Origin: an uncultured bacterium
GTDB taxonomy: Bacteria; Cyanobacteriota; Vampirovibrionia; Gastranaerophilales; Gastranaerophilaceae
Direction of reading: 5' to 3'
Length of the DNA stretch: 64,000 bases
Assembly (NCBI GenBank): GCA_949292175.1
Contig: CASEYJ010000017.1
Coordinates: 62,001 to 126,000, forward strand
The notes under the pieces: generated by a model
What the model was told of the DNA's origin: nothing
The model's input: the letters and a program-made list of their open reading frames with translations, nothing else
Database searches by the model: none
Program-made: the position numbers and the translations under genes
Shown: positions 20,443-28,150 of the stretch, piece after piece
Layout of the letters: every line of letters begins with the position of its first letter
Position numbering within the stretch: position 1 is the first letter of the stretch

Positions 20443-21471
20443 ATGGCTGGAGATACAGTAGGTTTTGGCAATTACAATCCATATTTAATGCAACAATATG
20501 GTGGCGCAAATGATGATTTCATGGCAAATTTACATTTTAAGGCAATCGAAGAAAGCGGAAAAATTCCAGGATTAACAGAAACCGCGGGTTCTCCTGCCTT
20601 CAGAGGAGCGCCTGAGACTGATACTTTTGAAAGAACAGGCGGTGGTCCTGGTTTACTAGGAACAGCAGCAATCGCAGCTACAGGCGCCGCAGCTGGTGGT
20701 GCGAGCGGATACTATTTCTTAAGTAATCCGGTAAAAGACATGGCAAACAAAACCTTGAACAGCGATTTTTATAAAACTATAGATAGATATGACTTGGCAA
20801 AAAAGGTAGAAGAATCAGTAAAACAACTAAAAAACAGTAAAGGCTACAACTTAGCACAACTGGCAAAAGTTGAAAGTTTTGACGCTTTACCAGATGAAGT
20901 AAAGACTTTCTTAAAAAACAATAATTTAGATGGCATAACTCCTGCAAAAGCAAAAGAAATTATTGAACAAACAGGCGCAAAACTTAGCGATTTTGAATTA
21001 GAGACAGTTGTTAAAAATGTCAGCGAAAAGTTTAAAGGCACAGAATATTACAACAGAATCATCAAAGCAAGTACAGATGACCAAATCTTATCATCAATCA
21101 ATAAAACAGCCAATGCTGATGAACTAAAAGCTTTGATAACAAAACACAAAGACTTTTTCGGAATAAAAGGAACCGAAGCCGAAGTTGCACAAAAAATAGA
21201 AGCTCTTGCAGCAAAAGGTAAAACACAAGTTGCAGATGACGCAGGACAAATCATACGAAAAGCTGAAGATTTTGTACTAAAAAGACGAGACGAAATTTTC
21301 GACAACTTAAGCAAAGAAGGCAAATTACTGGACAAAGCTGATGACGCAACAAAAGCCCTCTTTAAAAACTTCAAATGGCAACAAGCTAAAAAATATGGCA
21401 AATGGGGAGCCATAATTGCAGGCGGCGCTGCACTACTGTATGGCTTGTTCGGCGGAAATAAAAAAGCTTAA
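20443..21471 (+). CDS. Unknown protein with two Gly/Ala-rich membrane segments and an FRG motif
   Basis: No family is recognised. The 342-residue protein starts with an Asn/Tyr-rich segment, then SPAFRGAPE (Phe53-Arg-Gly55, the motif shared with other proteins here), then a Gly/Ala-rich hydrophobic stretch (about 69-93, GLLGTAAIAATGAAAGGASG). About 220 residues of charged helix follow, and a second hydrophobic segment near the C-terminus (WGAIIAGGAALLYGLFGG). The GxxxG-rich segments suggest a helical hairpin that inserts in a membrane or oligomerises. It has a good ribosome site (AGGAAAGG) and its own terminator. It may be a structural or surface protein; nothing else can be said. Confidence 0.6.
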   Translation: MAGDTVGFGNYNPYLMQQYGGANDDFMANLHFKAIEESGKIPGLTETAGSPAFRGAPETDTFERTGGGPGLLGTAAIAATGAAAGGASGYYFLSNPVKDMANKTLNSDFYKTIDRYDLAKKVEESVKQLKNSKGYNLAQLAKVESFDALPDEVKTFLKNNNLDGITPAKAKEIIEQTGAKLSDFELETVVKNVSEKFKGTEYYNRIIKASTDDQILSSINKTANADELKALITKHKDFFGIKGTEAEVAQKIEALAAKGKTQVADDAGQIIRKAEDFVLKRRDEIFDNLSKEGKLLDKADDATKALFKNFKWQQAKKYGKWGAIIAGGAALLYGLFGGNKKA

Positions 21472-26170: not shown

Positions 26171-26512
26171 TTAACTCAAATTAGCTAAAGTACTGAGGAA
26201 AAACGCTTTAATAGCATCTCCTCGGCTAACTTCTTTGTGACGTATTTTCTCATAAAGAGTGTAGTATGAATAAAAAGGAATATTCGAGTAAGCGTAAGAT
26301 TTTACTGCACTCTTTGCAGAGATATCTCCTCTTATATAACTGTCAGCATAATAATAAGGAGAAGTTCTCGAATTTGCACTCAAAATCATCTCCTGCATTG
26401 GAGCTTGCTTACGTTTTTTCTTTGGTAACGTGTTCTTTTGGTCATCATTGTCCGCAAAAGTAAGTTCTCTTGCGATGTAAGACTTAAAAGAACGGGGCGA
26501 AAAGTTTATCAT
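26171..26512 (-). CDS. Small basic protein, unknown function
   Basis: The 113-residue protein is rich in Lys, Ser and Tyr. Its N-terminus INFSPRSFKSY has a loose resemblance to the Phe-x-Gly motif, followed by a KKKRK patch at residues 31-35 and a Tyr-rich centre. I do not recognise it. It lies between argS and the attenuated locus and is transcribed leftward from a TATAAT box (26527-26522) nine bases before the ATG. There is no ribosome site. The coding call rests on length, tight fit to argS and composition, so it is less certain than its neighbours. Confidence 0.45.
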   Translation of the reverse strand: MINFSPRSFKSYIARELTFADNDDQKNTLPKKKRKQAPMQEMILSANSRTSPYYYADSYIRGDISAKSAVKSYAYSNIPFYSYYTLYEKIRHKEVSRGDAIKAFFLSTLANLS

Positions 26513-26587
26513 AACTAGTATATTATAAACATTGCATGAGAAATTTTGTCATTATGTAAATCAAATTTTACAAAATTAAAAGCCCAC

Positions 26588-26616
26588 TTGCAAAAATTCT
26601 TTTTTATTGTTATATT
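26588..26616 (+). promoter_or_regulatory. Promoter of the histidine-attenuator leader
   Basis: TTGCAA (26588-26593) and TATATT (26611-26616) are 17 bp apart. The predicted start near 26623 is three bases before the leader-peptide ATG. A second candidate, TTGTCA (26546-26551) with TACAAA (26569-26574), also spaced by 17 bp, would give a start near 26581. Confidence 0.65.
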
Positions 26617-26625
26617 GACACTACA

Positions 26626-26691
26626 ATGATTAAGTACATAGCAAATAAACAGTTTCATCATCATCACCATAGCAACCTGAAAAGGCTGTAG
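26626..26691 (+). CDS. Histidine-rich leader peptide (HHHHH) of a transcription attenuator
   Basis: A 21-codon ORF reads MIKYIANKQF, then five consecutive His codons (CAT CAT CAT CAC CAT, 26656-26670), then SNLKRL and TAG (26689-26691). Its layout matches his-operon leader peptides such as that of Escherichia coli, which has seven His in a row. The last codons and the stop overlap the 5' arm of the antiterminator helix (26676-26687), so ribosome position on the peptide decides which helix forms. There is no Shine-Dalgarno site, and the ATG lies very near the predicted 5' end. It is too short for an ordinary gene caller. Confidence 0.85.
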   Translation: MIKYIANKQFHHHHHSNLKRL

Positions 26692-26746
26692 AGTTGATGA
26701 TGCACTGTTAAAAATAGATTCAATTCAAAAAAGTAGCCTTTTCAGG
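26676..26746 (+). promoter_or_regulatory. Antiterminator helix of the histidine attenuator
   Basis: CCTGAAAAGGCT (26676-26687) is perfectly complementary to AGCCTTTTCAGG (26735-26746), 12 bp plus two G-U pairs. The 3' arm shares bases 26735-26739 with the terminator stem, so the two cannot coexist. A ribosome halted early in the His run leaves the 5' arm free and favours this helix; a ribosome at the TAG covers it. CATCATCA (26656-26663) can also pair with TGATGATG (26695-26702) and TGCACT (26701-26706) with AGTGCA (26751-26756). Confidence 0.75.
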
Positions 26747-26773
26747 ATTTAGTGCAGAGAGGTTACTTTTTTT
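26727..26773 (+). terminator. Attenuator terminator before the histidine-free membrane protein gene
   Basis: AGTAGCCT (26732-26739) pairs with AGGTTACT (26760-26767) with one G-U pair, extended by the flanking A6 and T7 tracts; the loop is 20 nt. The T tract (26767-26773) ends 24 bases before the ATG at 26798. It is the intrinsic terminator that competes with the upstream helix. Confidence 0.7.
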
Positions 26774-26797
26774 AATGGATTGGAGATTAATAGAACA

Positions 26798-28150
26798 ATG
26801 GCAATTATAACAAACATAATTTCAGCAATTGGAAATAACAATAGCATATACCCCCTTTTGGTAAGAGACTGCGGAATAGAAGTTCCGACAAAAGTTTATA
26901 AAACATACAACCAAAACAAACAAGATAAAGAAATCGCTTACCTTGCAACAAGAGAAAGAATTATCGATGAATATTCAACTTCTGCAGTTTGGCTTGGCGG
27001 CATTCCTCTGATTGATAAGATTTCAAACTACTTTATCAAAAAGAGAGGTTTTAACCCTGATGTAAATATAAAATTGTATAATGAAGAAAATGGAGTTCAG
27101 GGGTTAAAATACAATATTGAAAAATTCCGCAACATAAAAGGTGCAGAAGAAGCTGTAAAAGATTTAGAATATGTACTTGAAAATCAAGCAAAATACAAAA
27201 AGCTTCAAGGAAATAAGTTTATAGCAGCAATGGCAGTTCCAATTGCTCTAATGGGATTTGTTATTCCAAAAGCAGTTTTTGCAATGACAGCAAAAACCAG
27301 AGCTAAAAAAGAAGCTCTTCAAAAACAACAAAATATTCAACAAAACTTGTCAGAAAAAAATGTATCATTCTCAGGAAATAACATTTTTGACAAATTCAGT
27401 TTAAAAAATCCTCAAAAAATAACCTTTAAAGGCAGCTTTGCCGGAGCTGTATGCAACCTCAGAACAGTTGACAAAATGGCAATCACTGACGGTGGATACG
27501 CTGTTGGACGTGTTATTACCGCTAGAAAGAAAAACGAACGCATTGACTTAGGATTTAAAATGCTTGGAATGATGTATCTAAACTTCGTTGCACCAAAACA
27601 ACTTGAAAAACTCCTAAACAAAATTTCAAAATCTGTATTTAAACTTGATGTAAATTTAGACCCGCAAATACTTGCAGATAACAGATTAAAAGCACAGGTT
27701 CTCAACGGAACATTTAAGATTCCTGCAACAAACTCTGCCAAAGACTTGTTAGAATTTGTAGATAATGCAGAAAACAGTTCAAGCTTGTTTGTAGAATATG
27801 CAAAAAAATTCAGAAAATTAAGCTTTATTAATGATAATATAAGAGATCCAAGAGCCTACGTAGATGTTGAAGATTTAGGGAAATTCAGAGATAACCTTGC
27901 AAAATTTGCAGAAACAATTAAAGACCTAAGCAAAAAAACAATTGATCCTGCAAAGGAAAACTCAGCAGAAAAACTTGTCACAAAATATATTTCAAAAGCA
28001 AAAGCTGCAAAGACTTTTAACATCTTAGCAAATGTTGCAATAAGCAGTTACCTGCTTGCATGTGTTCTACCGGATGCTCAATTTGCATTCAGAAAGCTTG
28101 TCACAGGCTCAAAACTGGAACCAGGACTAATTCAAGACGATAAAAAGTAA
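26798..28150 (+). CDS. Histidine-free membrane-associated protein under a his-type attenuator
   Basis: I do not recognise the family. From the ATG at 26798 (GGAG 12 bases before it; a TTG at 26780 is in frame) the 450-residue protein contains no histidine. Hydrophobic segments lie at about 140-163 (FIAAMAVPIALMGFVIPKAV), 240-256 and 415-440 (ILANVAISSYLLACVLP). Two copies of the Phe-x-Gly motif occur, VSFSGNN (Phe191) and ITFKGSF (Phe210). The gene is alone behind the attenuator; the next gene is convergent. The C-terminal segment resembles those of the two membrane proteins at 56.3-57.6 kb. It may serve in histidine uptake or starvation survival, but that is only inferred from its control. 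Confidence 0.65.
   Translation: MAIITNIISAIGNNNSIYPLLVRDCGIEVPTKVYKTYNQNKQDKEIAYLATRERIIDEYSTSAVWLGGIPLIDKISNYFIKKRGFNPDVNIKLYNEENGVQGLKYNIEKFRNIKGAEEAVKDLEYVLENQAKYKKLQGNKFIAAMAVPIALMGFVIPKAVFAMTAKTRAKKEALQKQQNIQQNLSEKNVSFSGNNIFDKFSLKNPQKITFKGSFAGAVCNLRTVDKMAITDGGYAVGRVITARKKNERIDLGFKMLGMMYLNFVAPKQLEKLLNKISKSVFKLDVNLDPQILADNRLKAQVLNGTFKIPATNSAKDLLEFVDNAENSSSLFVEYAKKFRKLSFINDNIRDPRAYVDVEDLGKFRDNLAKFAETIKDLSKKTIDPAKENSAEKLVTKYISKAKAAKTFNILANVAISSYLLACVLPDAQFAFRKLVTGSKLEPGLIQDDKK

Follow-up and report, generated by a model that had tools for sequence, protein, structure and literature searches.

What does a leader peptide with a run of histidine codons regulate if the gene behind it belongs to no known family? 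This question is raised by a locus of an uncultured gut bacterium (Gastranaerophilales, Gastranaerophilaceae), which we analysed within a 64,000-nt stretch of DNA, here called the window. The original prediction comprised a leader ORF of 21 codons, five of them for His, together with a 12-bp helix and an overlapping terminator stem followed by T7. These elements were held to control, by the logic of his-operon attenuators, the transcription of an unrecognised 450-aa membrane-associated protein. We located the leader ORF, the 12-bp complement, the terminator-like stem and the 450-aa gene at the coordinates given in Table 1, and this part of the prediction held throughout. Segments P and Q are perfectly complementary. 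The terminator stem is formed by GTAGCCT (26733-26739) and AGGTTAC (26760-26766), followed by T7 (26767-26773), and its 5' arm has bases in common with the 3' arm of the antiterminator. Only weak evidence comes from promoter-like sites, as three were found and 2.4 are expected in shuffles. Our analysis makes it very likely that the locus is a ribosome-mediated histidine attenuator, acting partly on transcription and partly on translation, and that it controls a starvation effector in histidine auxotrophs. This reading is well supported by comparison, while the response to histidine is untested.

Table 1. Features of the attenuator locus and of the leader of an effector paralog. Positions refer to the window unless another contig is named.
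Feature	Position	Strand	Remarks
Promoter-like site TTGCAA-17-TATATT	26588..26616	+	Consensus match only; RNA start would lie 2-4 bases 5' of the leader ATG
Leader ORF, 21 codons, MIKYIANKQFHHHHHSNLKRL and stop	26626..26691	+	From sequence; leader also His-rich in the other 80 orthologs
Five His codons CAT CAT CAT CAC CAT	26656..26670	+	Bases 1-8 of the run form strand 1 of helix 1:3
Segment P CCTGAAAAGGCT, antiterminator 5' arm, within leader ORF end	26676..26687	+	Covariation with 26735-26746
GAGTTG element (GAATTG in most relatives)	26691..26696	+	ON-fold partner of CAATTC
Strand 3 TGATGATG, just 3' of leader stop	26695..26709	+	Partner: His codons and preceding bases, 26648-26663
CAATTC element	26721..26726	+	Partner 26691-26696 (ON) or Shine-Dalgarno region 26777-26782 (OFF)
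Segment Q AGCCTTTTCAGG	26735..26746	+	Partner P (ON), or R via 26733-26739 (OFF)
AGTGCA, loop of OFF hairpin	26751..26756	+	Complementary to TGCACT 26701-26706; possible pseudoknot
Segment R, terminator stem 3' arm and T7	26760..26773	+	T run of at least five between Q and Shine-Dalgarno site in 52/81 orthologs
GGATTGGAG, Shine-Dalgarno region of effector gene	26777..26785	+	Paired in OFF fold; duplex with CAATTC of at least 6 kcal/mol in 73/81 orthologs
Effector gene	26798..28150	+	450 aa without histidine; all-helical; membrane association probable; not assignable to a known family
Paralog leader, own genome (L139)	G000:C3, leader end 194537-194560	-	Further: L018-L030, L142-L157, L218-L241

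Searching GTDB genomes for the gene yielded 80 further orthologs (n=81 with the window). Most of the records are titled Candidatus Gastranaerophilales or Melainabacteria, and a few carry the names Fusobacterium sp. or Brachyspira sp., probably mislabelled bins. In all 81 cases, a short ATG-initiated ORF with 3-7 His per 10 codons was found upstream of the gene, examples from relatives being MENQILKLHHHHHHSDLRRAVNW, MFTPSVKRHHHNHHHCH and MKNEFTLNLHLHHHINLKRL. At least three His in 10 codons occurred in 2.3% of dinucleotide shuffles and never on the opposite strand. Over the 81 orthologs the leader His codons are nearly all CAT (343 CAT, 23 CAC), although genome codon usage was not compared. The number and spacing of the histidines differ among leaders, and KLHH-like positions ahead of the His run recur in many of them. 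Past the His run the leader peptide is variable, yet the RNA pairing there is retained. Comparison shows the leader to be conserved; its translation is inferred.

A ribosome-mediated attenuator calls for mutually exclusive helices, one of which overlaps the end of the leader ORF, and the locus satisfies this criterion. The window RNA folds with a z-score of -3.4, and only 1 of 200 shuffles was as stable. In this fold, helix 1:3 (His codons with TGATGATG) and the terminator are both formed; judged from sequence alone, this would be the OFF state expected for an untranslated leader. We then compared segments across leaders, with Q extending from CAATTC to AGCCTTTTCAGG. Q has two alternative partners, namely P (here the leader ORF end plus GAGTTG/GAATTG past the stop) and R (here AGGTTA...GAATTGGAG, including the Shine-Dalgarno sequence). 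P:Q pairing, compared over 44 diverse leaders, was stronger between own than between swapped partners (-27.7 versus -20.0 kcal/mol, p=4e-9), and the same was true of Q:R (-13.0 versus -8.8 kcal/mol, p=3e-7). The segment borders in the Q:R swap test are rough, and pair counts on a 42-sequence alignment are the better evidence. In this alignment the ON fold had 92.5% of its cells paired and the OFF fold 93.3%; double changes were seen in 82 cells for ON, against 29 in shuffles, and in 46 cells for OFF, against 14. When the partner was slid by one column as a control, pairing fell to 52-59% in both folds. Helix 1:3 was likewise supported by own versus swapped partners (p=6e-8). For GAGTTG/GAATTG with CAATTC, 94.6% of the cells were paired with zero double changes, which is conservation and not covariation. 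Where relatives have CGATTC instead (L079, L092), their Shine-Dalgarno site reads GAATCGG, and the change is thus compensated. Even leaders of wholly different sequence retain the identical three-part logic. Comparison shows the alternative helices themselves.

TGCACT and AGTGCA (26701-26706 with 26751-26756) received moderate support in the comparison of own with swapped partners (p=1.4e-5). They suggest a possible conserved pseudoknot between the strand 3 side and the OFF-hairpin loop; we could assign it neither to the ON nor to the OFF state. Variants of this pair are TGCTCA/TGAGCA in L031 and TTTCGC/GCGAAA in L060.

As its output, an attenuator should possess an intrinsic terminator or a hairpin sequestering the ribosome-binding site, and the stem with T7 in the window meets this criterion. 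A simple consensus terminator scan did not list the window terminator because of its 20-nt loop. About a third of the orthologs lack the T run, and the pairing of CAATTC with the Shine-Dalgarno site is found in more of them than the T run is (Table 1). We infer that Shine-Dalgarno sequestration is the more widely retained output and that termination was added in many orthologs, the window included; orthologs without a U-tract would then be under translational control. As the Shine-Dalgarno region is paired in the OFF fold, translation is probably controlled as well as transcription. Attenuators that sequester the ribosome-binding site have been described before (PMC9413887).

In the mechanism we propose, the ribosome on the leader would proceed to the stop codon as long as His-tRNA is charged and would thereby cover segment P. 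With P covered, Q would pair with R, the terminator would form, the Shine-Dalgarno region would be hidden and the gene would be off. If charged His-tRNA became scarce, the ribosome would stall at the His codons, breaking helix 1:3 and leaving P free. Free P would pair with Q, and transcription and translation of the gene would go ahead. In an untranslated leader, helix 1:3 would enclose P, Q:R would form and the gene would again be off. The product would be a membrane-associated protein nearly without histidines of its own, which could be made in the very shortage that induces its synthesis. Its likely role would be relief or survival of histidine starvation in cells unable to make histidine. 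Ribosome stalling, the direction of control and the role of the effector are all inferred.

The window protein has zero histidine in 450 residues, and the 81 orthologs together contain 26 in 35,629 residues (0.07%), compared to 1.75% in neighbouring ORFs as background and 0.98% in paralogs. Among the 81 orthologs, 63 lack histidine altogether, whereas each of the 109 background ORFs in the range of 350-600 aa contains some. The depletion is thus shown by comparison. Since histidine is nearly absent, the effector could still be made during shortage. We take the depletion as independent evidence that it is produced under histidine shortage, an inference from composition, as expression is untested.

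Proteins behind the His leader form a single clade (support 100/99), separate from the paralogs with another leader. The AlphaFold2 model of the effector is all-helical (pLDDT 83.5, pTM 0.78). Hydropathy analysis gave few clear hydrophobic segments, located near residues 142-160 and 406-424. Nothing above noise was found for the effector in Pfam, NCBIfam, PDB sequences or by Foldseek against PDB and BFVD. That it serves histidine metabolism or transport may be suspected from the association with hisG loss, which is indirect evidence. Gene order around the effector gene is variable among relatives. A recurrent neighbour, seen in 47 of 80 relatives, is a RelA/SpoT gene for a (p)ppGpp synthetase-hydrolase, which is located upstream in the opposite orientation (for example L038:561-2774, minus strand); a DUF167 gene often separates it from the effector gene. 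In the window, argS takes the place of the RelA/SpoT gene. No conserved transporter partner gene was found near the effector gene. FxG-type motifs (PAFRG, VSFSG, ITFKG) are shared by the effector and the product of window positions 20443-21471, otherwise unrelated proteins of the lineage.

Is the leader dedicated to this one gene? A covariance model of the leader was searched over 60 genomes of the family, 30 of which contain the ortholog. All 26 strong matches lay directly upstream of an ortholog, and the remaining matches were weak (E 0.03-0.04). One weak match was the leader of G020, which reads MFTPSVKRHHHNHHHCH (L005). For G063, G080 and G089 no match was listed, yet direct reading revealed His-rich leaders. 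We also inspected eight hisG loci, all from other families in this order, and found no His-rich leader upstream of hisG. A pattern search of the own genome for other His-codon runs showed that the other runs of four His codons we checked lie within or opposite long open frames. Rfam His_leader did not reach the gathering score in the window or in five relatives, the best sub-threshold Rfam match being Thr_leader (25.7 of 55 bits). No T-box covariance match was found in the window, and none up to E 10 at 26500-26900.

We then looked at histidine synthesis. Neither hisG nor hisD was found in the own genome. This genome is 90% complete, so the absence rests also on the near-complete relatives G006 and G011. 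Among the 60 family genomes, HisG and HisD are present in 18 and both missing from the other 42, the own genome included. The ortholog occurs in 28 of the 42 hisG-minus but only 2 of the 18 hisG-plus genomes (p=1.4e-4; p=0.008 with one genome per genus). These p-values are uncorrected for relatedness and hence optimistic. Exceptions are 14 hisG-minus genomes without the gene and the two hisG-plus genomes with it. A contrast within genus g21 points in the same direction: G032 has the his genes and lacks the effector gene, whereas G090 lacks the his genes and has the effector gene. The association with auxotrophy is shown by comparison; that the host, a gut bacterium, is a histidine auxotroph is predicted from gene absence. 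As a separate observation, trpA was not found in the own genus (G000-G011) and argG gave no match over the cut-off. Bacteria of this genus may need several external amino acids and not histidine alone.

How did the original prediction fare? Relatives that keep the gene but lack the His run or the helices would have refuted it, and none were found, the leader being His-rich in 81/81 and both folds compensated. The suggested check for the same leader upstream of his genes gave nothing at the eight hisG loci, and strong matches were confined to orthologs. His-operon attenuator logic is supported by comparison, with the response to histidine unmeasured. That the target is an unrecognised 450-aa membrane-associated protein held as to the lack of a family, membrane association being probable. 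Transcriptional control had to be amended to probably transcriptional plus translational control, and the host is now a predicted histidine auxotroph. Helix 1:3, the GAGTTG/GAATTG:CAATTC pairing and the CAATTC:Shine-Dalgarno pairing are additions to the earlier description. A histidine-starvation response with an undescribed effector is supported more strongly than first stated, although the biochemical function of the effector is unknown.

A different leader ORF, likewise conserved, immediately precedes paralogs of the effector; it usually contains RR and closes with (L)MNLxWGL before the stop. Like the effector, these paralogs belong to the same protein family, appear monocistronic and have a short conserved leader ORF directly upstream; they differ in leader peptide and RNA and in their histidine content, which is in the normal range (0.98%). 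The pattern MNLxWGL-stop occurs at most once per genome, in 24 of 38 genomes and without control hits, and its residues are preserved through synonymous changes. In 23 of the 24 genomes it lies ahead of an effector paralog, and in G048 (L241) ahead of another protein with FxG motifs. Arginine or tryptophan might be what this leader senses, as the own genus lacks trpA and also a full-length argG, but G044 and G048, both carrying the leader, possess argG. No clear depletion of Arg or Trp was detected in the paralogs.

Several other explanations have to be considered. The one that survives best accepts the same attenuator and takes the effector as a permease or scavenging machine of a novel type, or a part of one, for histidine or His-containing peptides. 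It is supported by the association of the gene with loss of histidine synthesis. Furthermore, known His regulation in auxotrophs targets transporters, for example in auxotrophic Actinobacteria, where HisR controls nothing but hisXYZ and its own gene hisR (PMC9413887), and a His-free composition would suit a protein that restores supply, by the cognate bias argument (PMC4209129). However, the effector matches no transporter family or fold, has few clear hydrophobic segments and no conserved transporter partner gene nearby, and its paralogs bear another leader. We consider this reading a serious contender that falls a little short of probable.

Alternatively, behind the same attenuator, the effector may possibly be a membrane protein for survival or growth arrest under histidine starvation, and not a transporter. 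The absence of a transporter signature, the upstream RelA/SpoT gene on the other strand in 47/80 relatives and the existence of lineage-specific paralogs with leaders of more than one type would fit. However, the RelA/SpoT neighbour is missing in the window and may reflect mere inherited gene order, and supply explains the link of the gene to hisG loss more simply.

It is very unlikely that the His-rich leader peptide is a metal-ion sensor or a sequence-intrinsic ribosome staller instead of a reporter of His-tRNA charging. His runs do bind metals, and the KLHH-like positions before the run recur in many leaders. However, the peptide past the His run varies while RNA pairing persists, His count and spacing vary, and metals explain neither why the effector has lost almost all its His nor why the gene is linked to the absence of hisG. 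A chance His run beside an ordinary terminator, for which nothing speaks beyond what one sequence alone would permit, is all but excluded by the 81/81 conservation and the compensatory changes in both folds.

Our preferred reading remains the histidine attenuator of a starvation effector. A bolder version would be a lineage-specific Gastranaerophilales membrane-protein family in which every branch has a leader peptide of its own that ties it to a different translational signal. In its histidine branch, an almost histidine-free effector would let auxotrophs cope in a way unlike known transporters or biosynthesis. We regard this as tentative, with the balance slightly against it.

If our reading is right, an uncultured gut-bacterial order dedicates a conserved attenuator to a single orphan protein, mostly in members without histidine synthesis. 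The near absence of histidine then assigns to an otherwise anonymous protein a physiological role that is concrete and open to testing. Testing composition in this way may also be of general use, since one could search for starvation effectors among proteins that have been depleted of a given amino acid and whose leader is rich in it. In the limited open-access literature searched, we found no description of the effector as a target, of its near lack of histidine or of the link to auxotrophy.

Amino-acid attenuators are textbook regulators. To our knowledge, the histidine attenuators described so far all serve recognised biosynthesis or uptake genes. The comparison supports well that the mechanism described here belongs to known ribosome-mediated attenuation. 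With the gamma-proteobacterial his operon attenuators (Rfam His_leader) the locus shares a tandem-His leader ORF and competing antiterminator and terminator helices. In contrast to these, it has no match to the Rfam model, resides in a different phylum and in a genome that lacks hisG and hisD, targets an orphan membrane protein, and additionally pairs the Shine-Dalgarno region in its OFF fold. Attenuators predicted in Firmicutes for his operons and hisXYZ-type transporters (PMC9413887) likewise have 3-5 consecutive His codons and alternative hairpins; their targets are recognised histidine genes, whereas the target in the window belongs to no known family. Finally, the cognate bias of amino acid biosynthetic enzymes (PMC4209129) offers a parallel, in that a protein needed in shortage is expected to be poor in the amino acid concerned. 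The final enzymes of the histidine pathway have a median bias of +2.1 residues, which is not low (PMC4209129). The effector, in contrast, is not a his enzyme, and its depletion is near total.
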